Shown: positions 27,580 to 47,081 of the stretch, piece by piece
Numbering within the stretch: the stretch's first letter is position 1
How the letters are laid out: every line of letters begins with the position of its first letter
From: an uncultured Winogradskyella sp.
GTDB taxonomy: Bacteria > Bacteroidota > Bacteroidia > Flavobacteriales > Flavobacteriaceae
Assembly: GCF_937958655.1 (NCBI RefSeq)
Contig: NZ_CALGNH010000003.1
Span: forward strand, 1 to 64,000
Reading direction: 5' to 3'
DNA: 64,000 bases
The notes under the pieces: generated by a model
The model's input: only the letters and a program-made list of their open reading frames with translations
Told to the model about the DNA's origin: nothing
The model's database searches: none
Position numbers and translations under genes: made by a program

Positions 27580-27620
27580 CCTATACAATTTTATATATAC
27601 ACTATACATTACCTATACAA
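27580..27620. promoter_or_regulatory. Two inverted copies of the TTGTATAGG motif
   Basis: CCTATACAA occurs at 27580-27588 and again at 27612-27620, a start-to-start spacing of 32 bp (about three helical turns). Its reverse complement TTGTATAGG recurs at 27747-27755 and 45544-45552. Candidate operator half-sites for a regulator of the glucan locus; inference from recurrence only. Confidence 0.45.
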
Positions 27621-27746
27621 ATCTATAGTAAAGCCCCCTTAATTGATTGTTTTTAAATTTTAGACGTTAAGTCAAAGTCGCAATTCTACATGCATTTCAC
27701 TTAATTATTCGTAATTTTTAACCACTCTTAATGCAATGTATATTTT

Positions 27747-27755
27747 TTGTATAGG
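27747..27755 (+). promoter_or_regulatory. TTGTATAGG motif upstream of the first glucan gene
   Basis: TTGTATAGG preceded by a T run, 90 bp before the preferred start of the GH-barrel fusion gene. The same T-rich context and motif occur 70 bp before the T9SS glycan-binding gene at 45622. Confidence 0.45.
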
Positions 27756-27844
27756 GTTTGTTTAATAAATTAACAAAATTTAAGATTATGTTTAAGTTTA
27801 TTAAATGTGTAACTAATCAAAAAGAAAAACTTAAAATAAAGACT

Positions 27845-30800
27845 ATGAAAAAATACTTTCTTAAGTTACTAATGTTATGTCTTTCTATTCAAGTTTTTGG
27901 ACAAGCGGACAATGTATCCGTCCAAAAAAGCATCGAGGGAATGAAGTTGATTGTAAATGGCGAAGATTTTATAATTAATGGTATGAATTGGGACTACATT
28001 CCTATTGGTACTAATACGCTCACAGCAAATTTCTGGAAAAAATCTGATGATGTTATTAAAGTGGGTTTAGATTCAGAAATGTCCCTACTTAGAAATATGG
28101 GTGTTAATGTTATTAGACAATATACTGGTGTACCGGCAAGATGGATTAAATACATTTATGAGAATTACGGAATTTATACCATGATAAATCATTCATTTGG
28201 TAGGTATGGATTAACCTTAAACGGAGTTTGGACACCCATAACTATCTACGATGATAAGGTGACTCAAGAATTTTTAATGAATGAAGTAACTACCCTTGTA
28301 AATGAGTATAAAGATACTCCAGGGCTGTTAATGTATTTATTGGGTAATGAAAATAACTATGGTTTATTCTGGCAAGGTGCAGACACAGAAGATTTTCCAG
28401 ATGACGAAGAGCAAAAAGCATTTATTGGAGAAAAACGAGGGAGACCAATGTACAGATTAATGAATGAAGCCGCCAAAGTTATGAAAGAACTTGATGCCTC
28501 ACATCCTGTAGCTATATGTAATGGAGATGCCTTATTTATAGATATTGTTGCCGAAGAATGTACAGACGTCGATATTTATGGTACTAACACCTACAGAGGT
28601 GCATCCTTTACAGATATGTTTAATGTTGTTAAAGAAAAGCTAGATATGCCATTAATGTTTACCGAGTTTGGCGCAGATGCTTTTAATACCAAGGAAAATC
28701 GTGAAGATCAGAAAGCACAAGCATACTATATGGTCAATAACTGGAAAGAAATTTACCAACATGCATCTGGCTTAGGTAAAACAGGAATTTCTATAGGAGG
28801 TTTTACATTTCAATTTAGTGACGGCTGGTGGAAATATGATTTTGATAATCGCGCAAATGCAGAAGTACATGATAATAATGCATCTTGGTCAAATGGTGGG
28901 TATCCAAACGATTTAGAGCCAGGCAGAAATAATATGAACGAAGAGTGGTTTGGGATCTGTGCAAAAGGTCCAACTAATCAAAGAGGTTTATACGATTTGT
29001 ATCCAAGAGCAGCCTATTATGCTTTAAAAGAAGCACATCAACTCAACCCTTATGACGAAGGTGTAACAGCAGCGACTGTTGCAAGTTACTTTAAGAGTAT
29101 TGAACTTATGGACGCTGTTTTAAGAGCAAGAGGAGATAAAGCAGCACTAGGTGGTAATGATTCCGAAAAAATTAGGTTAAGTCAGTTGACCGCTAAGTTT
29201 ACAACATTTAATACTGGTGGAAGTTTAATTACAACACCAGACAATCCAGACCCAGAATCAAATGCTGTTCCTAATCAATTAGGATTTGATCATATGCAAT
29301 CTTATTTTATAGGTGTTGAGGGAAATCCTGCACCTAACGTAAGAGCAGAAGTAAACCTTAATGTAGTGGGTAATGTAGCAAGAAATCCAATAGATGAAAT
29401 CTTTTATGAAAGTATAACAAGACCCTTAACTCTAGAAACTCAGAATGGGCAAACCGTGCCGAGAGATGTGAATAGAGTTAATGTTTACCAAGCAGAATTT
29501 GAGTGGAATGCTAAAGATTTTGATTTAAGAGGTTTTTATAGAACAGGACATTATCATTGGCAATACGAAGGGGATTTCTTTGGGTTATATCCTGAGGCTA
29601 ATTATGGGCCAAACCTGGATATTTATGGTGGTGAAATTCTTGGATTAGAAATAGACGGTAAAGGTTCTTTTGAAGGTTTAAAAGCCGCTTTTGGACCTCA
29701 ATTATGGTGGGCGGCTAATCCAACAGCCTTATTAAAATACCAGCGCAAAATTGGTAAATTTGATATTACCGGTATTTATCATAGAGATTTAGAAACTGAT
29801 CTTCAGTTTGATGATACGGGACGTCGTGTGTTAGACCCAAATCAAACCCGAAGTGGTATCATACCTGCATTTCCTACCGAACGTGCAACAATAGCTGTAG
29901 AGCGTGAGTTTGGTAAGTTAGGTCTTATTTTTGGGGGTATTTGGGCTGGTAGTCCTTTAAACGGAAGTTCCTTTCAAGATTTTAGAGACGGCAACGTTTT
30001 TGTAGATAAAGTCTCAAGCAAGGATAATTGGGGAGGGAAAGCAAAGATTACTTACCAAGGTGGTAAATTTAATTGGTATGCTCAAGGAGCTATCATGGGT
30101 TTAGTCGCTAATGGTGGAGCCGATGCCACTCAAACATTTACAGGTTGGAAACTAAAAGATAGTGGTAGTGGTAATATGACTAACTTTTTAACTGGTTTTA
30201 CGTATTCGTTCAACAACTTTCAGATTGCACCAAACTTTATGTGGCAGCAACCTATTGTAGATCCAATGCCAAATGGAGTAGATGCGCCAGGACGTTTAAG
30301 AAATGTTATAGATGATCCTTTTGCAGTAAGAGGAGGTAACAGAGAAACTACAGCAGGTGAAATTCTTTTTACCTACGATCCTACGCCAGGAACATGGATG
30401 TATCAGTGGGATAATGACAGATCCGAAGACGCAAAATTTGCTATGAACTTAGGTTTTGTATACCGCCATTTACCAACAACCCAAGATGCGCATATTGGCT
30501 TCTTAGCAAACCGTACATTTTTTGCGTTTCCAAGGTCTGCTCCGGCGCAAGATTTATGGGAAGTACACTCTAGAGTGGTTTCTAAATTAAACTCAGATTT
30601 TGGCATTATAGGTAACTTCTATTATGGTAATGGTCAGGGTAATGGAGATAGTGATAGAACAATTACCAGATTTGGTGGTGATATAAGAGCCATTTACAAA
30701 AAAATGAAATTAGAAACCCATCTTAAGGTTAATGATTGGGGACCGTTTGATTATCATAGAGACTTTAACTTAACATTTCCATTGCAGTTAATGGTAGATG

Positions 30801-31027
30801 TATCAACCTCGTTAGGTAAACCAGACTGGTTTATTTTACCAAGTACAACAGTTGGTATCAGAGGAACATGGCGTTCGTTAAACGCATTTTCTCCAAGGTA
30901 TTCTCCACTTGCTACACCAGCTAATGCAGATAATCCTAACCAACCGCCAATCCTTAGTCCTGTTGGTTTTCCTAATGGTTCAGAATGGGAGATTAGAACG
31001 TACGTCCACATTAATATTGGAAAATAA
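27845..31027 (+). CDS. Glycosidase-like TIM barrel fused to a putative outer-membrane beta-barrel
   Basis: About 1060 residues. The preferred start, ATG 27845, gives a signal peptide (MKKYFLKLLMLCLSIQVFGQ); an ATG at 27758 would add an unlikely 29-residue basic leader. Residues 30-420 resemble the catalytic (beta/alpha)8 domain of GH2-type enzymes, with INGMNWDY early, a likely acid/base Glu 169 in LLGNENN and a likely nucleophile Glu 274 in FTEFGADAF. The GH2 sandwich domains are missing. From about residue 470 the sequence consists of alternating polar/hydrophobic strands separated by Asn/Gly/Asp-rich loops, and the protein ends in a strand (EWEIRTYVHINIG). This fits an outer-membrane beta-barrel. 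It is the first gene of the beta-1,3-glucan locus, 7 bp before a glycan-binding lipoprotein. Exact glycosidase family and substrate are not certain. Confidence 0.7.
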   Translation: MKKYFLKLLMLCLSIQVFGQADNVSVQKSIEGMKLIVNGEDFIINGMNWDYIPIGTNTLTANFWKKSDDVIKVGLDSEMSLLRNMGVNVIRQYTGVPARWIKYIYENYGIYTMINHSFGRYGLTLNGVWTPITIYDDKVTQEFLMNEVTTLVNEYKDTPGLLMYLLGNENNYGLFWQGADTEDFPDDEEQKAFIGEKRGRPMYRLMNEAAKVMKELDASHPVAICNGDALFIDIVAEECTDVDIYGTNTYRGASFTDMFNVVKEKLDMPLMFTEFGADAFNTKENREDQKAQAYYMVNNWKEIYQHASGLGKTGISIGGFTFQFSDGWWKYDFDNRANAEVHDNNASWSNGGYPNDLEPGRNNMNEEWFGICAKGPTNQRGLYDLYPRAAYYALKEAHQLNPYDEGVTAATVASYFKSIELMDAVLRARGDKAALGGNDSEKIRLSQLTAKFTTFNTGGSLITTPDNPDPESNAVPNQLGFDHMQSYFIGVEGNPAPNVRAEVNLNVVGNVARNPIDEIFYESITRPLTLETQNGQTVPRDVNRVNVYQAEFEWNAKDFDLRGFYRTGHYHWQYEGDFFGLYPEANYGPNLDIYGGEILGLEIDGKGSFEGLKAAFGPQLWWAANPTALLKYQRKIGKFDITGIYHRDLETDLQFDDTGRRVLDPNQTRSGIIPAFPTERATIAVEREFGKLGLIFGGIWAGSPLNGSSFQDFRDGNVFVDKVSSKDNWGGKAKITYQGGKFNWYAQGAIMGLVANGGADATQTFTGWKLKDSGSGNMTNFLTGFTYSFNNFQIAPNFMWQQPIVDPMPNGVDAPGRLRNVIDDPFAVRGGNRETTAGEILFTYDPTPGTWMYQWDNDRSEDAKFAMNLGFVYRHLPTTQDAHIGFLANRTFFAFPRSAPAQDLWEVHSRVVSKLNSDFGIIGNFYYGNGQGNGDSDRTITRFGGDIRAIYKKMKLETHLKVNDWGPFDYHRDFNLTFPLQLMVDVSTSLGKPDWFILPSTTVGIRGTWRSLNAFSPRYSPLATPANADNPNQPPILSPVGFPNGSEWEIRTYVHINIGK

Positions 31028-31034
31028 TTGAGTA

Positions 31035-32543
31035 ATGATGAAAAAAATAAAATATAATAATTTGAAAAGGATATGTTTTGCAGCATTAGTATTTATGCTT
31101 GCGTTAGGATGTGAAAGAGATTTAACAGAAGAGGTCCAATTAGCTACATTTCCTTCTATTGGCGAAGTATTTACAGATGCACCAGTAAATCTAACAGATC
31201 AATTTTTTGTCTCATTTGATCCTGCACAAGGAGCAAATACGGAAGGCTTTGGTGTAGATACTAATGTGGCATTCCAAGGCACCACATCTATACGTATAGA
31301 TGTACCTGCTTCAAACGATCCCAATGGTGGCTTTATAGGTGGCATTTTTAGAGATCGTGGAGAAGGTAGAAATTTAACACAGTACGATGCACTGACTTTT
31401 TGGGCAAGAGGTTCTACAACAGGTACTTTAGGCGAAGTTGGTTTTGGAACGGATTTTTTAGGTGGACAATTCCCGGTGAGTCGCTCTAATATACAACTGA
31501 CTACGAATTGGAAAAAATACGTTATACCAATACCAGATGCTTCAAAATTGGTTCAAGAAAAAGGCATGTTCTTGTTTGCTGCTGGTGGATTGGATGTCCT
31601 TGGTGATGGTCCAAATGGAAATGAAATCGGTTGGACATTTTGGTTAGACGAAATTAGATTTGAGACTTTAGGAACCAATTTAGCAGTAAATACAGAGATT
31701 TTAAATGGTCAGGATATTGTTATTCAGGGATTCGCAGGTACTAATTTAGAGATCACAGGTTTATCACAAACTATTAATCTTGGAACAGGTGAAAATGTAG
31801 ATATTAATGTAGCACCAGCATATTTCAATTTTTTAAACTCTAACCCATCTGTAGCAACAGTAACAGAATCAGGTCTGGTTTCTGTAGCTGGGAATTCTGG
31901 CACAACCATTATTACTGGACAAATCAATGGTATTGAAGCAAATGGCTCATTAGAAGTAACGTCAAACGGTCAGTTTCCTGTTGCACCTATACCAACACGA
32001 GATTCAGGAGATGTTATTTCACTTTTTAGTGATGCGTATTCTAACGTGCCAGTTAGACACTATAATGGCTTTTTTGCGCCATTTCAAACAACCATGGGAG
32101 GTGCAGGGTCAGATCCAAATAATGTAGACATACAAGGTACTTTACCAGACGGTTCTTTAGATAACATTATTAATTATACACAACTAAATTTTGTAAGTAT
32201 AGGTACCTACGATACTGTACCACTTGTTGATGTGAGTACGATGACACACCTACATATAAATATTAATGTTAGAGAAGCTATTGATCCAAGCGATTTTATA
32301 AGGTTAGAAATTGAAAGTGGCACATTTACGGGCTCAACTGGCAACGGCAGTTTTATACTTTCATCAGCATTTTTAACAAACCCTGCTAATGTTAATGATG
32401 ATGGATGGGTAACTGTTGAGGTTCCACTTTCAAGTTTTTCAGGTAATATAGATTTTTCAGAATTAGGTCAACTATTCTTTATTTCAGATGCTACCATCTC
32501 AGATATATGGGTAGATAACGTATATTTTTATAATGATAATTAA
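31035..32543 (+). CDS. Surface glycan-binding lipoprotein with two CBM-like domains and an Ig-like domain
   Basis: 502 residues. Lipobox LALGC (Cys 26). Residues 50-210 form a CBM-like jelly roll ending FWLDEIRFE. A bacterial Ig-like (Big2) domain with SNPSVATVTESGLVSVAG lies at about 235-310. Residues 320-500 form a second jelly roll (PTRDSGDVISLFSDAYSNVPV ... DIWVDNVYFY), a type seen attached to flavobacterial laminarinases and repeated in the protein at 45622-47019. No catalytic residues are evident. I infer a laminarin-binding surface protein taking the place of SusE/F-type proteins. It is followed 14 bp later by the GH16 gene. Confidence 0.75.
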   Translation: MMKKIKYNNLKRICFAALVFMLALGCERDLTEEVQLATFPSIGEVFTDAPVNLTDQFFVSFDPAQGANTEGFGVDTNVAFQGTTSIRIDVPASNDPNGGFIGGIFRDRGEGRNLTQYDALTFWARGSTTGTLGEVGFGTDFLGGQFPVSRSNIQLTTNWKKYVIPIPDASKLVQEKGMFLFAAGGLDVLGDGPNGNEIGWTFWLDEIRFETLGTNLAVNTEILNGQDIVIQGFAGTNLEITGLSQTINLGTGENVDINVAPAYFNFLNSNPSVATVTESGLVSVAGNSGTTIITGQINGIEANGSLEVTSNGQFPVAPIPTRDSGDVISLFSDAYSNVPVRHYNGFFAPFQTTMGGAGSDPNNVDIQGTLPDGSLDNIINYTQLNFVSIGTYDTVPLVDVSTMTHLHININVREAIDPSDFIRLEIESGTFTGSTGNGSFILSSAFLTNPANVNDDGWVTVEVPLSSFSGNIDFSELGQLFFISDATISDIWVDNVYFYNDN

Positions 32544-32557
32544 AAGACAGTAAAACG

Positions 32558-33394
32558 ATGATGAGACACATAAAATATATATTAGGTACTATGGCAATAC
32601 TATTATTTGCCTGCGATTTAGACGAAACACAAGAAGTAGCAACATTAACCAATCTAGTATGGGAGGATAATTTTGACACTGACGGAGCGCCAGATCCTAC
32701 AAAATGGGCTTTTGAAATAGGAGATGGAACAGCGCAAGGTATACCAGGATGGGGAAATAACGAGCTACAATACTATACAGATCGTCCAGAAAATGTTAGA
32801 GTGCAGAGCGGAGTGTTGGAAATTACAGCAAGACAAGAAGCTTTTAATGGTTCTAATTATACCTCTGCAAGACTTATAACTAGAGGCTTGTTTCAGAGAA
32901 AATATGGGCGTTTTGAAGCGCGTATAAAACTACCAACAGGTCAAGGTTACTGGCCTGCATTTTGGATGCTTGGTGATGATAATAACGGTACTGAAGTTTG
33001 GCCTAATATAGGCGAAATAGATATTATGGAATATCTTGGGGATGAACCAACAAAAGTATTTGGTACAATACATGGACCAGCCTATTCTGGCGGTGAATCT
33101 ATTTCTAAAGAATACAATCTTTTAAATGACAGGTTTGATACAGGTTTTCACATCTTTGGAATAGAATGGGGACCAAGTTATATCAACTTTTATGTTGATG
33201 ATGTGTTATATCAAACCTTAACACCGCAAGACGTAGAAGAAGAAACTAATGGTGAAGGTCGCTGGATATTTGATGATAGAGCGTTTTATATGATTCTTAA
33301 CGTTGCAGTTGGAGGTAATTTACCAGGACCGCCTAGTCCAGATACTATTTTTCCGCAGAGCATGGTCGTAGATTACGTAAGAGTTTATAATTAA
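32558..33394 (+). CDS. GH16 endo-beta-1,3-glucanase (laminarinase), lipoprotein
   Basis: 278 residues. Lipobox LLFAC is followed by an acidic stretch. The GH16 beta-jelly-roll fold is clear: WEDNFDTDGAPDPTKWAFEIG at the start, NNELQYYTDRPENVRV, RLITRGLFQRKYGRFEARIKLP, and the catalytic signature EIDIME at residues 153-158 (nucleophile Glu 153, acid/base Glu 158). YWPAFWMLG precedes it, and a C-terminal VDYVRVYN strand closes the domain. The family includes laminarinases with exactly these motifs. Anchored in the envelope, it would cut laminarin into oligosaccharides. No extra CBM is fused; neighbours supply glycan-binding domains. Confidence 0.93.
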   Translation: MMRHIKYILGTMAILLFACDLDETQEVATLTNLVWEDNFDTDGAPDPTKWAFEIGDGTAQGIPGWGNNELQYYTDRPENVRVQSGVLEITARQEAFNGSNYTSARLITRGLFQRKYGRFEARIKLPTGQGYWPAFWMLGDDNNGTEVWPNIGEIDIMEYLGDEPTKVFGTIHGPAYSGGESISKEYNLLNDRFDTGFHIFGIEWGPSYINFYVDDVLYQTLTPQDVEEETNGEGRWIFDDRAFYMILNVAVGGNLPGPPSPDTIFPQSMVVDYVRVYN

Positions 33395-33407
33395 TAAAGT
33401 GAGTCAG

Positions 33408-34247
33408 ATGAAAACAATTTATAAAATAACTAAACTTTTAATGGTCTCACTAGTTGTAATGGTTATGTCTTGTGAGGATAATGAAAGTGGTGTAGATATT
33501 ATTGGTTTAGAAGCTAATTTTACCTACACGATCAATGCTAGGACTATTACATTTACCAACATATCTAATGACGCTGTTGATTATAGTTGGGATTTTGGTG
33601 ATGGTGACGTCTCTTCACTTATAAGTCCCATTAAAACCTATGAGGCTAATGGTACATATACGGTTGTTTTAACTGCTTTTGATGCGGTGGGTAACTCAGA
33701 GACAACAGAAGAAACTTTTGTAATAGATATACCAATATGTATAGACGAGACCAGTGAGAATATAGACCCTGCAAATGGACCTATAAATTGGACCTTTCTA
33801 ACCACAGACGGCTCAACAACATTTAGTGCATTTGGTGCTACGGCAGGTTTTATAGTGGGTAATCCGGTAATAGATAATGTAAATCAAAGCTGTAATGTAC
33901 AGCGTTTTGAAAAAACACCAGGCTGTCAAACGTTTGCAGGCTTAGGAGTTGCTTTAGCGTCACCGATAGACTTTTCTACAACAACTAATAAAACATTTAC
34001 AATGAAGGTGTTGGCAGAAAATCAACTAACCGAAGTAACTTTAAGGTTAGAGTTTATGTCATTTCCTAATACAGAACCCTCGCAAGATAGAGTAGCCACA
34101 ATAACACAACTAGGAGAATGGCAAGAATTAACCTTTGACTTTACAGATATACCATCGGGTACGTTTCAAAGTATGATTATCTATTTTGAAAGAGATGCAA
34201 CTTGTGATGGAGATATCTACTATTTTGATGATATCATTCAGCAATAA
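33408..34247 (+). CDS. PKD-domain glycan-binding lipoprotein
   Basis: About 279 residues. Lipobox VMSC. A PKD domain (ISNDAVDYSWDFGDGDVSS ... YTVVLTAFDAVGNSE) occupies residues 35-110. A CBM-like beta-sandwich rich in aromatic and acidic residues extends to the C terminus (DGDIYYFDDI). No catalytic signature is visible. I infer a surface glucan-binding protein of the kind found next to GH16 laminarinases. An in-frame GTG at 33399 precedes the chosen ATG at 33408, which starts directly at a normal lipoprotein signal. Confidence 0.75.
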   Translation: MKTIYKITKLLMVSLVVMVMSCEDNESGVDIIGLEANFTYTINARTITFTNISNDAVDYSWDFGDGDVSSLISPIKTYEANGTYTVVLTAFDAVGNSETTEETFVIDIPICIDETSENIDPANGPINWTFLTTDGSTTFSAFGATAGFIVGNPVIDNVNQSCNVQRFEKTPGCQTFAGLGVALASPIDFSTTTNKTFTMKVLAENQLTEVTLRLEFMSFPNTEPSQDRVATITQLGEWQELTFDFTDIPSGTFQSMIIYFERDATCDGDIYYFDDIIQQ

Positions 34248-34353: not shown

Positions 34354-37300
34354 ATGTCTAAAACAGAATTATTAGATAATAATATAGAGTTAGAGCGCGT
34401 ATCTATTAATGATAGAGCCTATTTTAAAATTACCAACAGTGATTTAATGCGACCATTTTTTATGACCATAGTCAGTGATTCTAATCACTGGATGTTTATA
34501 TCTAGTAACGGTGGGCTTACGGCAGGTCGTAAAAATTCTGAATATGCATTATTTCCATACTATTCTGATGATAAGATTACAGAGTCCTCCGAAATAACAG
34601 GATCTAAGTCTATTTTTCAGGTAGAAAAAAAGGGTCAGCGCTATATATGGGAGCCCTTTTCAATTCGTTTTAAAGATAATTATAATACCAAAACTAACCT
34701 TTATAAGAGTGTTTATGGTGATGCTATAATTTTTGAAGAAATAAATTTAGATTTAGAACTATCCTTTAAATACGAATGGTGTTCAACGGACGCTTACGGT
34801 TTTGTTAAGAAGTCGACCTTGTATAATCAATCAGGGTTACCAGTTACCATAGATATTTTAGATGGTATACAAAATGTTATACCCTATGGAGTAAGTAGTG
34901 CTTTGCAAAATGCAAGTAGTAATTTGGTAGATGCCTATAAACGCACCGAATTGGTTAAGCAATCTGGCATAGCCATATTTGCATTAAGTGCTATTATAGT
35001 AGATAAAGCCGAACCAAGCGAGGCGCTCAAAGCCAATATAGCTTGGTCTTTAGGGTTGGATAATCCTAAGTATTTATTGTCTTCATTGCAGTTAGATGCC
35101 TTTAGGAATTTTAAGGACGTACAGCAAGAGGAAGATATTAAGGCAGAAAAAGGAGCTTATTTTGTGAATTCAAAAATTGAATTAAAAGAGCAACAGCAAA
35201 AAGAATGGGTGCTAGTTGCAGAGGTTAATCAAGATACGTCCGATGTTATTAAAATATCAGAAGACATCATAAAAAATGATGATTTACCTTCTAAGCTCAA
35301 TAAGAACATAGCGTTAGGAACTAAAGCGCTCATAAAATTAAATGCAGCCTCCGATGCCATACAGTTAACCTCAGATACGCTAAGAGATACGAGACATTTT
35401 TCAAATACGCTTTTTAATATTATGCGAGGAGGCATCTTTGATGATGGTTATGGAATTGAAAAATGGGATTTTAAAACATATCTATTTAAGGCTAACAATG
35501 AAGTGGCGCAAAGGCAAACAGATGTTATAGATCAATTAGAAACCAAATTTACGGTTTCGGATTTAAAAGCAGTTGCTACTAGGAGTGAGGATAAAGATTT
35601 TCAGCGTCTGTGCTTAGAGTATATGCCCTTAAAGTTTAGTCGTCGTCATGGAGATCCTAGCCGTCCTTGGAACAAATTTTCAATTAATACAAGGAACGAA
35701 ATCGATGGTTCAAAAATTTTGGATTATGAAGGGAACTGGCGAGATATATTTCAAAATTGGGAAGCCTTAGCGCATTCGTTTCCCGAATTTATAGAATCTA
35801 TGATTCATAAGTTTTTAAATGCCTCAACTTTTGATGGTTATAACCCTTACCGAGTAACAAAAGGTGGTTTTGATTGGGAAACTATTGAGCCAGATGATCC
35901 ATGGTCTTACATAGGTTATTGGGGAGATCATCAGATTATTTATTTACTTAAGTTTTTAGAGTTTTTAGAAAATTATAAACCAGGTAAATTAAACCAATTA
36001 TTTAACAAAGCTATTTTTGTTTATGCTAATGTACCCTATAGAATAAAAGCCTATAAAGATGTATTACATAATCCTAAAGATACTATAGCGTTTAATGAAG
36101 CATTAGATAAACAAATAAGAACTAAACGCAATACTATTGGTGCAGATGGTGCATTGCTTTGCTATGATAATGGCACCGTAGTCCGTGCTAACTTTATTGA
36201 AAAGATTCTGGCAACAACGCTTTCAAAATTATCTAATTTTATTCCAGAAGGTGGTATATGGATGAATACCCAAAGACCAGAATGGAATGATGCTAATAAT
36301 GCTTTAGTCGGTAATGGCGTATCCATGGTAACCCTCTATTATTTAAGGAGATTTTTAAAGTTTTTTAATGGTGTTTTTGAAAATGCAACTGAAGAAAGTG
36401 TTGATGTCTCCGTAGAGCTAACAACGTTTTTTAATGATATAAAAGTAGCCTTTAGTACCAATCAAGCCCTTTTAAACACAACTATAAGTGACGTAGATAG
36501 AAAGAAAATTTTAGACGCTTTAGGTTCTGCAGGTAGCCATTTTAGAGAGCGTATCTACACGCAGTCATTTTCTGGTGACAAATCTAAACTTAGTCTTAAG
36601 GATATTAAGACATTTACAAAGCTAGCCTTAAAATACTTAGAGCATTCCATAGCATCTAATAGGCGCCAAGATCATATGTACCATGCCTATAATCTTATGA
36701 CGGTTAAAAACAAAAAGGAGATTTCCATTGCTCATTTAGATGAAATGTTAGAAGGACAAGTCGCTGTATTGAGTTCTGGTTATTTAAGTTCTAAACAAAA
36801 CTTAGCTGTTTTAGATGGTCTTAAGCAGAGCAAGCTTTTTAGAAGCGATCAGTATAGTTACATCTTATATCCATATAAAGATTTAAGAGGGTTTATGGAT
36901 CGCAACACCATACCATTAGAGGCCGTAGAAGGTTCAGATTTATTAAAAAAACTTGTTTCAGATGAAAATGCCCAAATCCTAAAAAAAGATATAGAGGGTA
37001 ACTATCACTTTAATGGTAATTTTAAGAATGCTAACGATTTAGAAAACGCATTAAATCACTTACAGGAAGACGATTACAAGGTGTTGGTAAAAAGTGATAC
37101 ACCATATATCCTTCAAATATTTGAGAATATTTTTAATCACAAGGCCTTTACAGGGCGCTCAGGAACCTTCTATGGTTATGAAGGTTTAGGCTCTATTTAT
37201 TGGCACATGGTTTCCAAATTGCAATTAGCGGTTATGGAATGTTGTCAAAAAGCGATTAGGGAAAATGAATCTGATGAAATCATAGGACGATTATTAGAAC

Positions 37301-37800
37301 ATTATTACGAAATCAATGAAGGCATAGGTGTACACAAGTCACCAGAATTGTATGGTGCTTTTCCAACAGATGCTTATTCGCATACACCAGCTGGTAAAGG
37401 AGCACAGCAACCAGGAATGACTGGGCAAGTTAAAGAGGATATTTTATGCCGTTTTGGTGAACTGGGTGTTTTTATAAGCCACGGCACATTAACATTTAAT
37501 CCTTGTATGCTAAGAAAAGATGAGTTTTTGTTAGCATCAAAAGTGTTTGAGTATACCAATATACTAGGTGATGCTTCAACCCTAAATCTTAATAAAGGAG
37601 AACTGGCCTTTACATATTGTCAAATCCCTATAGTATACGTTTTGTCAGATCATAATAAGATAGAAGTTAAGTATACAAACGGTAATAGTGTCCCTATTGA
37701 TAATTTACATCTCAATACTGAAATAAGTAAAGCGGTTTTTAGTCGTACTAATGTTATTAAACAGATTAAGGTGCATATAAATACAAACATTTTAAAATAA
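34354..37800 (+). CDS. GH149-like beta-1,3-glucan phosphorylase
   Basis: 1148 residues with no signal peptide, hence cytoplasmic. Size and layout fit GH149, a family of bacterial and protist beta-1,3-glucan phosphorylases related to GH94. An N-terminal beta-sandwich covers about 1-320, followed by an (alpha/alpha)6 catalytic barrel. Signatures are EGNWRDIFQNWEALA (near 470), GGFDWETIEPDDPWSYIGYWGDHQ (near 510) and PEWNDANNALVGNG (near 642). Asp 646 in that last motif aligns in context with the GH94 catalytic acid. The reaction would be phosphorolysis of beta-1,3-gluco-oligosaccharides to glucose-1-phosphate, saving ATP after import by the symporter encoded at 40605. Beta-1,3-glucan specificity is supported by the flanking GH16, GH17 and GH30 genes. 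Family assignment is from memory of sequence features. Confidence 0.78.
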   Translation: MSKTELLDNNIELERVSINDRAYFKITNSDLMRPFFMTIVSDSNHWMFISSNGGLTAGRKNSEYALFPYYSDDKITESSEITGSKSIFQVEKKGQRYIWEPFSIRFKDNYNTKTNLYKSVYGDAIIFEEINLDLELSFKYEWCSTDAYGFVKKSTLYNQSGLPVTIDILDGIQNVIPYGVSSALQNASSNLVDAYKRTELVKQSGIAIFALSAIIVDKAEPSEALKANIAWSLGLDNPKYLLSSLQLDAFRNFKDVQQEEDIKAEKGAYFVNSKIELKEQQQKEWVLVAEVNQDTSDVIKISEDIIKNDDLPSKLNKNIALGTKALIKLNAASDAIQLTSDTLRDTRHFSNTLFNIMRGGIFDDGYGIEKWDFKTYLFKANNEVAQRQTDVIDQLETKFTVSDLKAVATRSEDKDFQRLCLEYMPLKFSRRHGDPSRPWNKFSINTRNEIDGSKILDYEGNWRDIFQNWEALAHSFPEFIESMIHKFLNASTFDGYNPYRVTKGGFDWETIEPDDPWSYIGYWGDHQIIYLLKFLEFLENYKPGKLNQLFNKAIFVYANVPYRIKAYKDVLHNPKDTIAFNEALDKQIRTKRNTIGADGALLCYDNGTVVRANFIEKILATTLSKLSNFIPEGGIWMNTQRPEWNDANNALVGNGVSMVTLYYLRRFLKFFNGVFENATEESVDVSVELTTFFNDIKVAFSTNQALLNTTISDVDRKKILDALGSAGSHFRERIYTQSFSGDKSKLSLKDIKTFTKLALKYLEHSIASNRRQDHMYHAYNLMTVKNKKEISIAHLDEMLEGQVAVLSSGYLSSKQNLAVLDGLKQSKLFRSDQYSYILYPYKDLRGFMDRNTIPLEAVEGSDLLKKLVSDENAQILKKDIEGNYHFNGNFKNANDLENALNHLQEDDYKVLVKSDTPYILQIFENIFNHKAFTGRSGTFYGYEGLGSIYWHMVSKLQLAVMECCQKAIRENESDEIIGRLLEHYYEINEGIGVHKSPELYGAFPTDAYSHTPAGKGAQQPGMTGQVKEDILCRFGELGVFISHGTLTFNPCMLRKDEFLLASKVFEYTNILGDASTLNLNKGELAFTYCQIPIVYVLSDHNKIEVKYTNGNSVPIDNLHLNTEISKAVFSRTNVIKQIKVHINTNILK

Positions 37801-37812
37801 AATGTGTTTAGG

Positions 37813-39102
37813 ATGAGAAAAAGTTATGTTATAATTATTAGTTTTTCTCTAATGCTTTTAGTGTCTTGTGGTAAAACCAAAACAGAGAACACATTAGTTA
37901 TACAGAGTCTTAAAGAAGTTACAGCTAAGGATATATTAGGAAACTCAGCGTATTTAGCAATCTCTTATGGAGGTTACAGAAAAAAATCTAGAGATAGTCA
38001 GCCGACTATATCAGAGTTAAAAGAGGATTTAAAAATCTTATCGGCAATGGGCATTAAGGTATTGCGAACTTATAACGTTCAGACTAAATTTCCTCATGCC
38101 TCAAACGTACTTAAAGCAATTTCAGAATTAAAAACAGAGGATAAAAATTTTGAAATGTATGTAATGTTAGGGGCTTGGATAGATTGCCTAAATGCTTGGA
38201 CAGAAGCACCAAACCACAACGTTGAGAGTCCAAATAATGAAGGGGAGATTAAAAGAGTTGTAGCGCTTGCAAATCAATATCCAGATATCGTTAAGATTAT
38301 AGCTGTAGGCAACGAAGCTATGGTAAAATGGGCAGCTTCTTATTATGTACAACCCTCAATAATCTTAAAATGGGTAAAACACCTTCAGAAGTTAAAGGAT
38401 AACGGACAGCTGCCAAAAGATCTTTGGATTACTAGCTCAGATGATTTTGCATCTTGGGGAGGAGGCGAAGCACAATATCATGTAGCGGATTTAGAACAAC
38501 TTATAAAGGCGGTAGATTTTATATCTATGCATACCTATCCTTTTCATAATACACATTATAATCCAGAGTTCTGGGGAGTGCCAAAAGCCCATGCGGATAT
38601 ACCAGATGCAACCAAAATAGAAATGGCAATGGAGCGTGCTCTAAAGTTTGCGCAAAAACAGTACGATAGCGTTACCAATTACATGAAAAGTCTTGGTGTA
38701 AATAAGCCTATACATATTGGCGAAACGGGTTGGGCGACAAGATCTAATGGGTTTTATGGAGACAATTGCTCTCGTGCCGCAGACCAGTATAAACAAGGTC
38801 TTTATTACAAATCAATTAGGAATTGGACAAATAATGCTAGTATCTCTTGTTTTTACTTTGAAGCCTTTAATGAACAATGGAAAGATGCTGGTAATCCAAA
38901 AGGATCAGAAAATCATTTTGGCTTATTTACAATCGATGGAAAAGCTAAATATCCGATTTGGGATTTGGTAGATCAAGGTGTTTTTGATGGGTTAACTAGA
39001 AATGGTAATACAATTTCAAAAACATATAATGGTAATAAAGAAGCACTTTTAAAGCCGGTTTTGGTGCCACCAATTAATGAAGAAATAATGGTAAACAGAT
39101 AA
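37813..39102 (+). CDS. GH17-like beta-1,3-glucanase/glucosidase lipoprotein
   Basis: About 429 residues. Lipobox LVSC (Cys 19). The (beta/alpha)8 fold shows GH17 signatures: LSAMGIKVLRTYN, the acid/base Glu in IIAVGNEAMVKW (about residue 168) and the nucleophile Glu in IHIGETGWATRS (about 304). FEAFNEQWKDAGNPKGSENHFGLF near the end is typical of the family. It should act on beta-1,3-gluco-oligosaccharides in the periplasm or at the surface. A GTG at 37804 is an alternative start; the ATG at 37813 begins a normal signal. Spacing to GH149 upstream is 12 bp and to GH30 downstream 3 bp. Confidence 0.88.
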   Translation: MRKSYVIIISFSLMLLVSCGKTKTENTLVIQSLKEVTAKDILGNSAYLAISYGGYRKKSRDSQPTISELKEDLKILSAMGIKVLRTYNVQTKFPHASNVLKAISELKTEDKNFEMYVMLGAWIDCLNAWTEAPNHNVESPNNEGEIKRVVALANQYPDIVKIIAVGNEAMVKWAASYYVQPSIILKWVKHLQKLKDNGQLPKDLWITSSDDFASWGGGEAQYHVADLEQLIKAVDFISMHTYPFHNTHYNPEFWGVPKAHADIPDATKIEMAMERALKFAQKQYDSVTNYMKSLGVNKPIHIGETGWATRSNGFYGDNCSRAADQYKQGLYYKSIRNWTNNASISCFYFEAFNEQWKDAGNPKGSENHFGLFTIDGKAKYPIWDLVDQGVFDGLTRNGNTISKTYNGNKEALLKPVLVPPINEEIMVNR

Positions 39103-39105
39103 TAT

Positions 39106-40593
39106 ATGAAGTTAGTTAAATGGAATATGTGTTGTCTTTTAATTTTGGTTATGGCATGTGCAAATTATCAAAAAAAAGAACTTAAAGTTCAGGTTTTTGA
39201 AACTTCCGCAAGTGGTAATAAAATGCAACAAATAACTGAATTTAATAAAGAAGATGTAGTATCTCATATTAGTATTGATCCTAGCAAAAAGTTTCAAACC
39301 ATTACGGGTTTTGGAGGTGCATTTACGGAGTCCTCAGCTTATTTGCTAAATAAATTAAGTAAAAAAAACAGAGATACCATAATGAGAGCTTACTTTGGAA
39401 AAGATGGAGCTAATTATTCATTATGTAGAACACATATGAACTCTTGTGATTTTTCTTTAAATCAATATTCTTATGCACCAACAGAAGATATTGAGTTAAA
39501 AGATTTTTCTGTAAACGAGGATATGGATGATTTAATACCAATGATTAAAGAAGCTTATGCTATATCTCAAGAGGGTTTTAAATTATTTGCCTCACCTTGG
39601 ACCGCACCACCATGGATGAAGGATAACAAAGAATGGGTAGGCGGTAAACTCTTAAAGGAACACTATCCCACTTGGGCATTGTTCTTTTCAAAATATATTG
39701 AAGCCTATAAAGAACAAGGTATTGAGCTTTGGGGATTTACAGTTGAGAATGAACCTCATGGTAACGGTAATAATTGGGAAAGCATGCATTTTACACCAAA
39801 GGAAATGACGGATTTTGTGCAATATTATTTAGGGCCAAAATTAGAAGCGGATGGTCATGGTGATAAAACTATTTTAGGATATGACCAAAATAGAGAAGGC
39901 ATAAAAGAGTGGGTAGATGTAATGTATGCTACAGACGAGTCTTCAAAATATTATGATGGCACAGCAATTCACTGGTACGAAAGTACCTATGAAGTATTCC
40001 CCAAAGCCTTGCAATATGCACACAAAAAAGCTCCTGATAAATACCTGATAGAAACAGAAGGCTGCATAGACTCTGAAGTGCCAGCATGGAAAGATGATGT
40101 ATGGTACTGGAAAAAAGAAGCAACAGATTGGGGTTACGACTGGAGAGAAGAAGAAAAAAAGTATTTACATCCTAAATATGCTCCGGTAAATAGATATGCA
40201 AGAGATATTATAGGTTGCTTAAATAATTGGGTAGATGGCTGGGTAGATTGGAATATGATTTTAAACAGACAAGGCGGTCCAAATTGGTTTAAGAATTGGT
40301 GTGCTGCGCCAGTAATTGTAGATGAAGACGCAGACGAAGTTTACTTTACACCATTGTACTATACCATGGCACATTTTAGTAAATATATTAGACCTGGCGC
40401 CGAAATTGTTCATGTTAATAAAACGGATGATGAGTTATTGGTATCGGCAGCATTAAATCCAGATAAAAGTTTAGCAATTGTCATTTTTAATGAAGGTGAA
40501 ATACCTAAAAGCTTCAATTTAAATTATGATGGAAAAACAAAAGTGATTGGAATTAATAGACAGGCTTTACAAACGATAATACTAACTAAATAA
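39106..40593 (+). CDS. GH30 family beta-glucosidase/beta-1,6-glucanase lipoprotein
   Basis: 495 residues. Lipobox LVMAC (Cys 18). GH30 motifs: GFGGAFTESSAYLLNKL, SPWTAPPWMKDN, acid/base Glu 216 in FTVENEPHG and nucleophile Glu 318 in LIETEGC. A C-terminal beta-sandwich ends the protein. In laminarin loci GH30 enzymes remove beta-1,6 side branches, so this protein likely debranches laminarin. Subfamily cannot be fixed by eye; glucosylceramidase-like GH30_1 or GH30_3 is most likely. Co-transcribed with GH17 upstream and the symporter downstream. Confidence 0.92.
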   Translation: MKLVKWNMCCLLILVMACANYQKKELKVQVFETSASGNKMQQITEFNKEDVVSHISIDPSKKFQTITGFGGAFTESSAYLLNKLSKKNRDTIMRAYFGKDGANYSLCRTHMNSCDFSLNQYSYAPTEDIELKDFSVNEDMDDLIPMIKEAYAISQEGFKLFASPWTAPPWMKDNKEWVGGKLLKEHYPTWALFFSKYIEAYKEQGIELWGFTVENEPHGNGNNWESMHFTPKEMTDFVQYYLGPKLEADGHGDKTILGYDQNREGIKEWVDVMYATDESSKYYDGTAIHWYESTYEVFPKALQYAHKKAPDKYLIETEGCIDSEVPAWKDDVWYWKKEATDWGYDWREEEKKYLHPKYAPVNRYARDIIGCLNNWVDGWVDWNMILNRQGGPNWFKNWCAAPVIVDEDADEVYFTPLYYTMAHFSKYIRPGAEIVHVNKTDDELLVSAALNPDKSLAIVIFNEGEIPKSFNLNYDGKTKVIGINRQALQTIILTK

Positions 40594-40604: not shown

Positions 40605-42017
40605 ATGTCAACATTTATAAACAAAGTTCCATTTGGCCAAAAAGTAGCCTTTGGTTTTGGTATGCTTGCCAATCAAATGTTTCCTGCTGCACTTGGGGTA
40701 TTTATAATTGTACTAGTTCAAGATTTACGATTTGCGCCATTACTTTGGGGAGTTATTCAGTTTGCACCAAGATTATTCGATGCAATTACAGATCCAATTA
40801 TGGGTTTTATCTCCGATAATACACGTTCAAAATGGGGAAGGAGAAGAGCTTATGTCTTTGTAGGCGGTATAATTATGGGTCTGGCTTATGTAACGATGTG
40901 GCAATTGTTTAAGGAGAATGGCACAACATTTAATTTTTGGTATTTCTTCTTATGGTCCTTAGTTTTTTATTTAGGATTAACCATTTTTAGCGTGCCCTAT
41001 GTTGCCATAGGTTATGAAATGAGTGATGATTTTCACGAACGTACCCAAATAATGGCTATAGCCCAATGGATAGGTCAATGGGCTTGGGTCATTGCACCAT
41101 GGTTTTGGGTTATATTGTACGATCCAAATTGGTTTCCAAAGGGTGCGGATTACGGAGTTAGGGAACTTTCAGTTTGGGTGGCAATTCCTTGTACTATTTT
41201 TGCTCTAATACCAGCACTATTTATTAAAAGTAAATCTACATCAGATAGAGAAGACTTTGTACCTATTAGTCTTAGAAGTATAATTAGTAGTATCTCAGAA
41301 ATCTTTAAATCTGCTTTTGCAGCATTTAAAATTCCAGAATTTAAACGTATTGCAGTTGCCACATTTTTAGTGTTTAATTCTTTTAATGTTATTGCTGCGT
41401 TTACACCCTTAATTATATGGCATCACATGTTTAATAGTGACCAAGCTGCTGCAGGCATTTGGCCGTCAATGCATGGTAGTGTAGGTGCTTTATGTACCAC
41501 ATTTTTAGTAATACCATTGGTAACTTTTATGGCTAAACGAATTGGCAAAAAGAAAACCTTTATGATATCACAATCAATTTCAATAATCGGTTATATATTA
41601 TTTTGGTTTTTATTTATAGAAGGAAAGCCACACCTCTTTTTATATGCACTACCGTTTCACTCATTTGGAATTGGTGGTTTGTTTACAATAATGATGTCTA
41701 TGACTGCAGATGTATGTGATTTGGATGAGTTGCAAACAGGTAAACGTCGCGAAGGTGTTCTTGGTGCCGTTTATTGGTGGATGGTTAAAGTAGGTTACGG
41801 ATTTTCAGCCTTACTAGGTGGAACTATCTTATGGATAGTTGGTTTTGAAGCAGAAGCAGTTACAACATCTTCCGTTACAGGGATAAGATCGTTTTACTCC
41901 TGTCTTCCAATTCTTGGAGTTTTAGGTGCGTTATGGGTTATGAAAGGCTATAATTTAACAGAAGAACGTGCTAATGAAGTCCGTAAAGAATTAAAAGAGC
42001 GTAAGTTAAAATCATAA
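40605..42017 (+). CDS. Sugar:cation symporter of the GPH/MFS type
   Basis: 470 residues with about 12 membrane segments and no cleavable signal. The segments DAITDPIMGFISDNTRSKWGRRRAY near residue 60 and MTADVCDLDELQTGKRREG near residue 370 are characteristic of the glycoside-pentoside-hexuronide:cation symporters. In this locus it would carry glucose or short beta-1,3-gluco-oligosaccharides into the cytoplasm, where the GH149-like phosphorylase acts. Spacing of 11 bp to the GH30 gene supports a shared operon. Confidence 0.88.
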   Translation: MSTFINKVPFGQKVAFGFGMLANQMFPAALGVFIIVLVQDLRFAPLLWGVIQFAPRLFDAITDPIMGFISDNTRSKWGRRRAYVFVGGIIMGLAYVTMWQLFKENGTTFNFWYFFLWSLVFYLGLTIFSVPYVAIGYEMSDDFHERTQIMAIAQWIGQWAWVIAPWFWVILYDPNWFPKGADYGVRELSVWVAIPCTIFALIPALFIKSKSTSDREDFVPISLRSIISSISEIFKSAFAAFKIPEFKRIAVATFLVFNSFNVIAAFTPLIIWHHMFNSDQAAAGIWPSMHGSVGALCTTFLVIPLVTFMAKRIGKKKTFMISQSISIIGYILFWFLFIEGKPHLFLYALPFHSFGIGGLFTIMMSMTADVCDLDELQTGKRREGVLGAVYWWMVKVGYGFSALLGGTILWIVGFEAEAVTTSSVTGIRSFYSCLPILGVLGALWVMKGYNLTEERANEVRKELKERKLKS

Positions 42018-42106
42018 TACGAAGTCATTAATTTTAACTGCTTTAGTATTATGAGGCCATAGTATTTGTATATCTTTACTAATAGATGTTAATATTTTAA
42101 TTTAAA

Positions 42107-45403: not shown

Positions 45404-45621
45404 TTTAAAGCGTTAAAAATTACTTGTATAGTTAGGCTAATTTAGTTTGTACTACTTTTTTTTAATTTAAATTAATGAAAATCAAGCAGTTGATAATTTA
45501 AAAAAAATAATCATTTTTCGGTTTTATTAGGCTTGTATGGTTTTTGTATAGGCATAAAATAACTTGTAATTGCCAAAAATTCATTTAATTGCATGCAGTA
45601 TTAACAAATAACTAAAAAAGT
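45404..45621 (+). promoter_or_regulatory. Regulatory gap with TTGTATAGG motif
   Basis: 218-bp non-coding gap. TTGTATAGG occurs at 45544-45552, the truncated copy TTGTATAG at 45424-45431 and a near copy TTGTATGG at 45533-45540. The motif is shared with the gap before the first glucan gene, suggesting that the downstream gene is a second unit under the same control. No terminator-like hairpin was seen after the VCBS gene. Confidence 0.4.
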
Positions 45622-47019
45622 ATGAAGAAAATTACATTTTTCATTGCGATGATGACCATAACATTTGGGTTCTCGCAAGAGCTTATTACCAATGGCGATT
45701 TTCAAACTGGTATGGCAGGAGACTGGTATAGTGGAGGAGAAAATCAACCTATTGAAATCGTTGATCTTGGAGGGGGTGAATTCGTTTTCCAAGCAAACGT
45801 TGCTAGCGTTACTGATGCGTGGCGAGTAAACTTAAGTCAACTTGTGGATTTAGAAGATAATACCACTTATGACCTTACGTTTGATGCTTTTACAGACACC
45901 GCAACAGGCACAAGAACTATGACAACTACCTTAGGTCAAGCAGGGGCACCTTTTGGTGCAACCATGTCAGAGGAACTTACATTAACAGACACCCCTCAGA
46001 CTTTTAATTTTTCAATTACCACAACTTTTGATACCGCAAATACGGCTTCAGATAACCCTGGAAGTAGACTAATTTTTGATATGGGTGCAGATACAGGTTT
46101 TGTATTTATTGATAATGTTTCTCTGGTATTATCTAATTCTAGTTGTAATAACAACGGTATGATGGATGGTGATGAAACTGGTGTAGATTGTGGTGGATCT
46201 AATTGTGCTCCCTGCGTGGTAGTGCCACCTGGACCAGCACCCCTACCTACCTCACCAGATGGTGAAACTCTTAGTCTTTATGACGGTAACCTAGCAGGTG
46301 ATGTAACAAGTTTTACTACAAATTGGCCTTTTGCATACGATTTTGGAAATCCGCCAACTGAAATAGATTCAGATCCTGGAGCAGATGTAAACGGAATTTG
46401 GGGATTAGACCTAGGGGTTGCAGGATATGGACAAGGGGAAGGACCTATTGATGCGTCTATTTATGGTTTCTTGTCTTTTGACTATTGGTATACTCCAAAC
46501 GCAGGAACTTCTGGTTTTAGATTTGAAATTATACATAACAACCCATCGGTTCAAGGATTCGTATACGAAATCGGTCCTGGTATGGATGATGAAGAAACAA
46601 CCGTAGAAGAGCAATGGACTAAAGTAGTTATTCCATTATCTTATTTCGTGGCCTTAGGTTTTGATGAAACAGCGTTCTTTCAATGGAAATTTGATCCTTA
46701 CATGCAGTCTGTAGATAACGCAGGTATTCTTTATGTAGATAATATTCTACTAACGCAGAATAACCCGCTATCAATTGATAGCTTCGAAACCTCTCAATTT
46801 ACCGCGTTCCCTAACCCAACGACTAACAATTGGAATATTAAAGGCAATGCCCTTATCAATTCAATAGCAGTTTATGATTTATTGGGTAAGCAAGTTAGTG
46901 CATTAGTTCCTAATGCTACTGAAGCTACAATTGATGCAACCTCCTTAAATTCTGGTATTTATTTTGCAAGAATTGAAGGGTTAAATGGGTCTCAAACAGT
47001 TAAACTTGTTAAGGAATAA
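45622..47019 (+). CDS. T9SS-exported glycan-binding protein with two CBM-like domains
   Basis: 465 residues. Signal peptide (FFIAMMTITFGFSQ). Residues 20-170 are a CBM4/9-like jelly roll (ELITNGDFQTGMAGDWYSGG). A short Cys-rich linker (CNNNGMMDGDETGVDCGGSNCAPC) follows. Residues 215-385 resemble the C-terminal jelly roll of the lipoprotein at 31035 (PDGETLSLYDGNLAGDV ... GILYVDNILLTQ). The last roughly 75 residues are a T9SS type A sorting domain (FTAFPNPTTNNWNIKG ... GIYFARIEGLNGSQTVKLVKE). No catalytic residues are evident. It is probably a cell-surface laminarin-binding protein. Preceded by the shared TTGTATAGG motif and followed by a strong terminator. Confidence 0.82.
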   Translation: MKKITFFIAMMTITFGFSQELITNGDFQTGMAGDWYSGGENQPIEIVDLGGGEFVFQANVASVTDAWRVNLSQLVDLEDNTTYDLTFDAFTDTATGTRTMTTTLGQAGAPFGATMSEELTLTDTPQTFNFSITTTFDTANTASDNPGSRLIFDMGADTGFVFIDNVSLVLSNSSCNNNGMMDGDETGVDCGGSNCAPCVVVPPGPAPLPTSPDGETLSLYDGNLAGDVTSFTTNWPFAYDFGNPPTEIDSDPGADVNGIWGLDLGVAGYGQGEGPIDASIYGFLSFDYWYTPNAGTSGFRFEIIHNNPSVQGFVYEIGPGMDDEETTVEEQWTKVVIPLSYFVALGFDETAFFQWKFDPYMQSVDNAGILYVDNILLTQNNPLSIDSFETSQFTAFPNPTTNNWNIKGNALINSIAVYDLLGKQVSALVPNATEATIDATSLNSGIYFARIEGLNGSQTVKLVKE

Positions 47020-47047
47020 CAAAGATTAATAGTAATTTAATGATTAA

Positions 47048-47081
47048 AGCGTGTTTACTTTTGGGTAAACACGCTTTTTTT
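47048..47081 (+). terminator. Strong intrinsic terminator ending the glucan locus
   Basis: AGCGTGTTTAC (47048-47058) pairs perfectly with GTAAACACGCT (47065-47075) and is followed by seven T. It separates the glucan genes from the DUF255-LacI pair. Confidence 0.92.

Follow-up and report, generated by a model that had tools for sequence, protein, structure and literature searches.

We studied a 64,000-nucleotide stretch of an uncultured Winogradskyella sp. genome (contig C3, positions 1–64000, of G000, an assembly of 3.03 Mb in 93 contigs that is 99.7% complete; hereafter the window), which carries a beta-1,3-glucan locus at 24767–47019, with all its genes on the plus strand. We read it as a unit for taking up and breaking down laminarin (a beta-1,3/1,6-glucan), and it has a genuine GH149 phosphorylase. 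Judged from a structural model, the product of its gene at 27845–31027 is very probably a fusion of an enzyme with an outer-membrane beta-barrel, a protein that we refer to as the hydrolase-barrel. Based on its fold and topology, the fusion itself, its conservation, the absence of the SusC and SusD transport pair (SusC/D) at the locus, and the lack of any SusC orthologue elsewhere among the genome's contigs, we tentatively propose, with confidence just short of even, that the hydrolase-barrel would be the locus's own outer-membrane port for glucan, in place of SusC/D. Laminarin is one of the largest pools of carbon cycled in the ocean. By the prevailing view its import hinges on TonB-dependent SusC/D pairs, which serve as markers of laminarin use.

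The predicted hydrolase-barrel and its partner lipoprotein

The open reading frame (ORF) of the fusion likely starts at an internal ATG near position 27845, where a signal peptide begins. Pfam and NCBIfam profile scans of the window proteins, from which the family calls were made, placed the glycoside hydrolase family 2 (GH2) TIM-barrel domain PF02836 on the N-terminus of the protein (27.1 bits, cut-off 21), and found no Pfam match over cut-off in its C-terminal 635 residues. GH2 enzymes have N-terminal sugar-binding and immunoglobulin-like sandwich domains. No Pfam match to either was found in the fusion, in which the TIM barrel starts right after the signal peptide, nor did Pfam find the N-terminal plug domain of TonB-dependent transporters, the TIM barrel being the only domain identified. 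A preliminary description of the window, made from its letters alone, had the enzyme families of the locus right and overlooked the predicted outer-membrane barrel fused to this "GH2" ORF, which is not a plain GH2 gene.

An AlphaFold model of the fusion, built with 42 relatives (mean pLDDT 75, pTM 0.52), had a TIM barrel at residues ~30–400, a helical linker at 409–440, and strands from 443 to 1057 that extend to the C-terminus (~600 residues, or 60% of the protein). We counted 24 main strands, with a few short ones left out. The links between the 24 strands alternated between long and short (mean 23.8 versus 4.8 residues, permutation p 4.5e-5). Hydrophobicity alternation along the strands was 2.79 on a scale altered by setting W, Y and F to 3.0, and 5000 within-strand column shuffles had a mean of 1.47 and a maximum of 2.37. 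The signal peptide, the even number of predicted amphipathic antiparallel strands, and the alternating links are those by which an outer-membrane barrel is recognized. Foldseek searches with the whole model placed BtuB, a TonB transporter, at rank 40 in the PDB (E 2.8e-8), and in a viral library identified OmpC, autotransporter, SusC, and OprO/P-type proteins (E 1.3e-7 to 3.7e-4).

By its modelled fold the fused TIM domain is a member of clan GH-A, with GH157/GH158 and GH2 tied as its nearest folds: the top solved structures belonged to the endo-beta-1,3-glucanase families GH157 (Z 27.6) and GH158 (Z 27.5), and a GH2 glucuronidase was tied with them (27.1). At the sequence level there was a weak match to the GH158 profile (E 0.0017). 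Residues E169 and E274, which we take to be the glutamate pair of clan GH-A enzymes, were at least 90% conserved in 43 sequences. Identity of the fusion across the 42 relatives was 59–81%, and the barrel half was as conserved as the TIM half (mean ~70% identity each to the window protein in 39 full-length relatives). The fusion was the first gene of the enzyme block in nearly every surveyed locus holding both, L161 being the exception.

The gene that follows the fusion encodes a 502-amino-acid (aa) lipoprotein whose model (pLDDT 86) was all-beta, bar the signal helix and short helices, and whose structure matches were CBM22, CBM30, CBM11 and SGBP-B. It matched no Pfam family, and the contig had no match to PF07980 (SusD). 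The SusD fold is mainly helical. The 502-aa protein is of the surface glycan-binding type, not a SusD. A 1089-aa ORF followed by a 502-aa ORF has the classic sizes and order of a SusC/SusD pair, and a hidden SusC and SusD under these two ORFs was considered and rejected, as there was no SusC or SusD profile match and the 502-aa protein was all-beta.

Acidic residues after the lipid cysteine are the rule for a surface-export signal. The mean numbers of aspartate and glutamate residues in the six positions after this cysteine were 2.67 for SusD (lipobox recognised in 12/24), 2.21 for the 502-aa family (52/94), 2.05 for GH16 (60/95), and 3.17 for the PKD lipoproteins (30/39), as against 0.74 for GH17 (47/88) and 1.11 for GH30 (35/55), though some of these rows may be false. 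The corresponding means for lysine and arginine were 1.45 and 1.46 in GH17 and GH30. The FG-GAP lipoproteins (lipobox in 2/3) had no acidic excess. As sequence signals, these residues fit a surface location for SusD, the 502-aa family, GH16, and the PKD protein, and a periplasmic one for GH17 and GH30.

SusC/D at the locus and elsewhere

The absence of SusC/D from the 64 kb, already claimed in the preliminary description, was borne out: neither TIGR04056 (SusC) nor PF07980 had a match on contig C3. In the whole genome there were 33 matches to TIGR04056, six of them over cut-off, and five to PF07980; contig C60 has one more SusD-like protein, from a different Pfam family (SusD-like_2).

The comparison within the window's family covered the window, 20 further loci of the same genus, and four of the same family, of which 23 were scorable and two were left unscored; L208, from the same-genus set, shares its sequence with L021. 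SusC/D was present between the regulator and the fusion in 10 of the 23 and absent from 13. Among loci where both the regulator and the fusion were seen, the gap between them was 161–335 bp in 11 without SusC/D, 1065 bp in L217, whose fusion gene is split, and 6.7–8.1 kb in eight with SusC/D. On a tree of 48 fusion proteins, which describes the protein and not the species, the SusC/D label changed at least eight times and was clustered no more tightly than in shuffles (100–104 of 500 were as low). The nearest row to the window on this tree was L208 (81% identity), which bears SusC/D. Five fused loci with less than 5 kb upstream (L122, L158, L168, L207, and L210) were left out of the tree scoring, as was L169, where the gene is in two frames. 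There were 26 matches in one survey, and G442, G409, G431, and G408 were left out of the fetched loci. The genus is a natural experiment, in which sister species have the same locus with and without SusC/D.

We also sought the SusC of L208 in 20 genomes. The seven with a pair at the locus held it at 53–100% identity, and identity among bearers in this comparison was 53–67%. In the 13 genomes without the pair, the window's included, the best match to the locus-type SusC was 37% identical, and five had no match at E 1e-100; two of these 13 assemblies are less than 90% complete. Because the genomes without the pair hold no orthologous SusC elsewhere, SusC/D did not relocate: it has disappeared from them or was never acquired.

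Across an evenly drawn set of 395 Bacteroidota genomes the barrel family was widespread, the barrel half being found in 34 of the genomes, GH149 in 70, and both in 33. The barrel was fused to the TIM domain in one frame of 1028–1090 aa in 33 of the 34 and split in two frames in one, G235 (L169). A split fusion gene was also seen in G425 (L217); either split may come from decay or from sequencing error. Loci were fetched from the other 33 barrel genomes. Outside the window's family, SusC/D was absent from ~20 kb in all 25 fused loci that had at least 10 kb upstream, four further loci having too little sequence or a broken gene. SusC and SusD profiles made from relatives found nothing at E 1 in the same 25 loci, and were sensitive enough for these surveys, since they recovered the six SusC and five PF07980-type SusD of the window's genome. 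Around those loci there were 32 large unlabelled ORFs, and among the 18 scanned none was a TonB receptor and three were without any match. In distant genomes the gene beside the fusion encodes a GH81 protein with a type IX secretion system (T9SS) tail or a multi-CBM protein (L154 10120–12702, L160 7461–10079, and L162 9860–12631), a probable outside glucanase or binder. SusC/D is in any case often missing near GH149, because GH149 loci lacking the fusion rarely show the pair: among 37 such loci in the phylum sample, many of them cut by contig ends, SusC/D exceeded 300 bits in two, with a weak match in L170, L184, and L185. As SusC/D was absent from 13 of 23 loci in the family, whose genomes held no orthologous SusC elsewhere, and from 25 of 25 loci outside it, it is an optional part at this locus.

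Within the window's genome, the SusC closest to the locus-type SusC was on C45 (35% identity). Its neighborhood, which had no GH16, GH17, GH30, or GH149, is by its gene content a second beta-glycan locus, probably for xylan or beta-glucan; its GH5 resembles endo-beta-1,4-glucanases, and the PDB matches were endoglucanases, some of them beta-1,3-1,4-glucanases. At E 1e-180 the 19 other genomes of the genus held a single close copy (82%) of the C45 SusC, in a genome with SusC/D at the locus as well; the 12 other genomes lacking SusC/D there held none, so the C45 SusC is not a general partner of the locus. The genes scanned beside the other SusC/D places spoke against their being laminarin loci: C62 has GH32, PfkB, and LacI as neighbors, C82 has ThuA, a sugar kinase, and an oxidoreductase (its first 8 kb unscanned), C26 has a secreted S8 protease and Porin_10, and C60 (partly scanned) has a sulfotransferase-like protein and SusD-like_2. 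The GH32, protease, and sugar-oxidation genes on C62, C26, and C82 point to other substrates. In addition, the genome had at least four FG-GAP/UnbV_ASPIC lipoproteins of ~1100 aa (35–42% identical), and three of these adjoined SusC/D pairs, with one such pair in the GH32 locus; this protein is a recurrent large companion of glycan import.

Gene layout, a proposed route and its alternatives

There were 13 co-directed genes at 24767–50229, the last two (47110–49224 and 49231–50229) of doubtful membership (Table 1). From the fusion through the symporter the intergenic links were 3–14 bp, except for 106 bp ahead of GH149. The co-directed carbohydrate-active enzymes (CAZymes), glycan-binding proteins, and regulator are the gene content of a polysaccharide utilization locus (PUL), which supported the preliminary description's one-strand beta-1,3-glucan locus of GH16, GH17, GH30, a GPH-type symporter, and a phosphorylase. 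The same gene order recurred in dozens of other genomes and is therefore not due to chance. Across the genus the regulator stood directly before the fusion or before SusC/D, and because relatives keep its place it probably belongs to the unit. The phosphorylase, first described as GH149-like, is a true GH149 (NF058639, 1782 bits against a cut-off of 1150, positions 3–1134 of 1134). The symporter was over cut-off for Pfam MFS_2 (189.7 bits, cut-off 27) and under it for NCBIfam TIGR00792 (164.5 bits, cut-off 231.35). The locus had the sole match in the genome to each of the GH149, GH30, and GH17 models, and GH16 had a second site on C67. Right after the locus, 47110–49224 encodes a DsbH/DUF255 thioredoxin-like protein with GH76 similarity below cut-off.

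Table 1. Features of the glucan locus in the window and of related places in the same genome.
Feature	Coordinates	Strand	Basis or content
Regulator, Y_Y_Y domain and LuxR-type helix-turn-helix, 936 aa	24767–27577	+	Y_Y_Y over cut-off; GerE 23.1 against cut-off 23.5
Hydrolase-barrel fusion (very probable): signal peptide, clan GH-A TIM barrel, helical linker, predicted 24-strand outer-membrane beta-barrel	27845–31027 (ORF 27758–31027, 1089 aa)	+	Structure model and profile scan
502-aa lipoprotein, CBM - Ig/Big - CBM, surface glycan-binding type	31035–32543	+	Structure model and structure matches; acidic residues after lipid Cys
GH16 endo-beta-1,3-glucanase (laminarinase), probable surface lipoprotein	32558–33394	+	Pfam; solved laminarinases matched; acidic residues after lipid Cys
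PKD-domain lipoprotein, probably glucan-binding	33399–34247	+	Pfam; acidic residues after lipid Cys
GH149 1,3-beta-glucan phosphorylase, no signal peptide	34354–37800	+	NF058639 1782 bits; 6hq6 1676 bits
GH17 endo-beta-1,3-glucanase, lipoprotein, probably periplasmic	37804–39102	+	PDB 6fcg 640 bits, residues 7–431; basic residues after lipid Cys
GH30, probable beta-1,6-glucosidase (debranching), lipoprotein, probably periplasmic	39106–40593	+	Pfam; activity by analogy with FbGH30 (PMC6246565, in part)
MFS_2/GPH-type inner-membrane symporter	40605–42017	+	Pfam/NCBIfam
FG-GAP/UnbV_ASPIC lipoprotein, 1098 aa	42107–45403	+	Profile scan; three paralogues on C45 and C62, next to SusC/D pairs, are 35–42% identical
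CBM4_9 protein with T9SS C-terminal sorting domain	45622–47019	+	Profile scan
LacI-family regulator, possibly of this locus	49231–50229	+	Profile scan; LacI homologues 3' of the GPH gene in several relatives
C45 beta-glycan locus (L227, L008, L228)	C45 5801–30272		GH10-PKD, GH3, xylose-isomerase-like, GH5, CBM4_9, FG-GAP, SusD, SusC, hybrid two-component regulator, GH3-PA14
FG-GAP/UnbV_ASPIC copy on C45	L008 6142–9459		
FG-GAP/UnbV_ASPIC copies on C62	L010 3013–9686		

In the route that we propose, the surface lipoproteins (GH16 laminarinase, CBM-Big-CBM, and PKD) would bind and cut the glucan, and the fragments would cross the predicted 24-strand barrel. The TIM domain, most likely on the periplasmic side, would cut the entering chain and so make entry one-way. 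Periplasmic GH17 and GH30 would then trim and debranch, the GPH-type symporter would move short oligosaccharides inward, and GH149 would split them with phosphate to give glucose 1-phosphate. The basis for the enzyme steps is the established families to which the proteins belong and, by analogy, the assays reported for probable Formosa orthologues in the available part of PMC6246565. We infer the barrel's service as a glucan channel, the side and the activity of the TIM domain, and the order of the steps. Cytoplasmic phosphorolysis as the likely last step, a point of the preliminary description, is supported by the GH149 equivalog match, the absence of a signal peptide, and the solved homologue 6hq6, the activity being predicted. 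A locus "built around" phosphorolysis was too strong a statement, since GH3 stands in for GH149 in some Muricauda clusters (PMC13188888, in the text available).

Several observations weigh against the barrel as the port. Three of the 24 strands hardly alternated (0.2, 0.9, and 0.4), and the strands were picked by eye from a medium-confidence model that leaves the placement of the domains, the number of strands, and the width of the pore uncertain. The barrel matches were loose (TM 0.33 by target and rmsd 15.8 for BtuB; TM 0.12–0.28 by target and rmsd 14–39 in the viral library); the PDB match list was filled by the TIM domain, and the barrel was modelled only within the whole fusion. Ten family members have the fusion and SusC/D together, so the fusion may be accessory, and it was near SusC/D or SusD in L026, L054, L069, and L080 among the best 80 GH149 loci. 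TIM-only homologues (~430 aa) adjoined GH149 both with SusC/D (L047, L081, L082, L084, and L172) and with none in the stretch read (L064, L070, L097, L189, L195, and L203, and with at most about 2 kb of upstream sequence L035, L076, L078, L179, and L199), so the barrel was not simply swapped for SusC. The TIM-only loci lacking SusC/D also weakened a rule by which TIM-only proteins go with SusC/D and fused ones without. Finally, the loci were chosen by having the fusion, and its constancy is partly selection.

The order of the domains would also suit surface display, in which an autotransporter-like barrel anchors the TIM-type endo-glucanase outside and the fragments enter by another route. Autotransporters have an N-terminal passenger enzyme, a helical linker, and a C-terminal barrel, as the fusion does with its linker at 409–440; helices stood just ahead of strand 1 in the model, and autotransporter beta-domains were among the viral-library fold matches. 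A classical autotransporter translocator has ~12 strands, however, compared to the 24 predicted over ~600 residues here, and GH16, a lipoprotein bearing a surface-type signal, is already there in the locus. Of ten TIM-only homologues, two (L081 and L082) were lipoproteins with a lysine right after the cysteine, a hint of the periplasm, the others being mixed or without a lipobox. We consider display unlikely. Import of laminarin fragments by an unlinked SusC/D pair, most likely that of C45, with this locus only processing them, appears unlikely as well. Its SusC was the best in the genome against the locus-type SusC (426 bits), the pair lies amid beta-glycan hydrolases (GH10, GH5, and two GH3), CBM4_9, and an FG-GAP paralogue (42%), which counts against the hydrolase-barrel as port, and an unlinked laminarin SusC/D is documented in Maribacter in the available part of PMC11345257. 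Nevertheless, the 35% identity is matched by other SusC in sister genomes (32–37%), the C62 SusC of the GH32 locus scored nearly as high, GH10 with GH5 and GH3 suggests xylan or a beta-1,4 or mixed-linkage glucan, and close copies of the C45 SusC were rare in the genus. The search for a laminarin SusC/D elsewhere in the genome, suggested in the preliminary description, thus yielded no orthologue of the sister-locus SusC, though the C45 pair may have a helper role. We find it very doubtful that GH16 makes short oligosaccharides outside that diffuse through general porins, the fusion's role being minor or unrelated. A Porin_10 protein is present in the genome, and a short-oligosaccharide role was proposed for Proteobacteria GH149 clusters lacking an outer-membrane transporter (PMC5827456, text available in part); this sits poorly with the conservation of the fusion in 42 relatives, its barrel half included, and with its first place in the enzyme block.

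If the hydrolase-barrel can do the outer-membrane step, SusC/D-based counts miss users of laminarin, there may be another mechanism of "selfish" uptake, and the cleavage of bonds could replace TonB-borne energy. A broader reading, possible but doubtful, is that there would be a second SusC/D-independent glycan import machine in Bacteroidota, a barrel with a fused endo-beta-1,3-glucanase whose cutting drives or traps entry and a CBM-type surface lipoprotein in SusD's place, which may have been overlooked through its annotation as a GH2 enzyme.

Comparison with known systems

The SusC/D-less GH149 locus is not new. CAZyme clusters of this kind were noted in Bacteroidota in 2018 (PMC5827456), which, like the one here, have GH149 with GH16 and/or GH17 and GH3 and/or GH30, without SusC/D; the words "porin," "GH2," and "beta-barrel" are absent from the available text. 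In 2026, laminarin clusters of Muricauda were described with the order LuxR, GH2, one or two GH16, PKD, and GH149, then GH17 - GH30_1 - MFS - GH17 (PMC13188888). These are the gene kinds of the window, the first enzyme there being named a GH2 beta-glycosidase; the part of the text available lacks "porin" and "outer membrane" and uses "barrel" for enzyme folds only. In Muricauda algicola AsT0115 (L039, VCNI01000001), a strain covered by that paper, we found the order fusion - 502-aa family - GH16 - PKD - GH149 - GH17 - GH30 - GPH, with the fusion gene at the edge of the stretch and its upstream side outside it.

Laminarin PUL 2 of Formosa sp. Hel1_33_131 is induced by laminarin, and its GH30 and GH17 were assayed in 2018 as a beta-1,6-glucosidase and an endo-beta-1,3-glucanase (PMC6246565). 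Its tags (GH16 24690, GH17 24720, GH30 24730, and MFS-GH17 24740) fit the gene order in L025, from a metagenome-assembled genome (MAG) labelled as this Formosa, which has GH16, PKD, GH149, GH17, GH30, and a 782-aa MFS-GH17. Based on gene order and tags, PUL 2 is probably the orthologous locus, in which FORMB_24670 and FORMB_24680 would be the fusion and the 502-aa lipoprotein. L025 has a SusC fragment ~4 kb downstream of the MFS gene; the available passages of PMC6246565 do not mention the fusion, and the Formosa porin FORMB_11920 is in a nitrogen cluster. The 782-aa protein (L025 16218–18563) is a GPH symporter fused to a C-terminal GH17-like domain and, with the hydrolase-barrel, would make two transporter-enzyme fusions in one locus. 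Expressed laminarin PULs of the form "GH149-GH0-..." occur in three North Sea MAGs (PMC10108472, available in part); the GH0 there may belong to this TIM family, whether or not it carries the barrel.

GH157 and GH158 (LaGH157 and BuGH158), the top folds for the TIM domain, have solved chains of 404–528 residues that lack an outer-membrane barrel, and searches of an open-licence library aimed at barrels, porins, or fusions gave no report of a glucan locus in which a glycosidase is joined to an outer-membrane barrel. The canonical SusC/D laminarin PULs (variants A–D, PMC6298971, in the text available) share GH16, GH17, GH30, and the presumed substrate with the window locus. They differ in their TonB-dependent SusC and SusD lid, which are absent from the window locus and present at the same locus in 10 of the 23 family loci. 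The locus as first stated was largely known, and the fusion is its new part.

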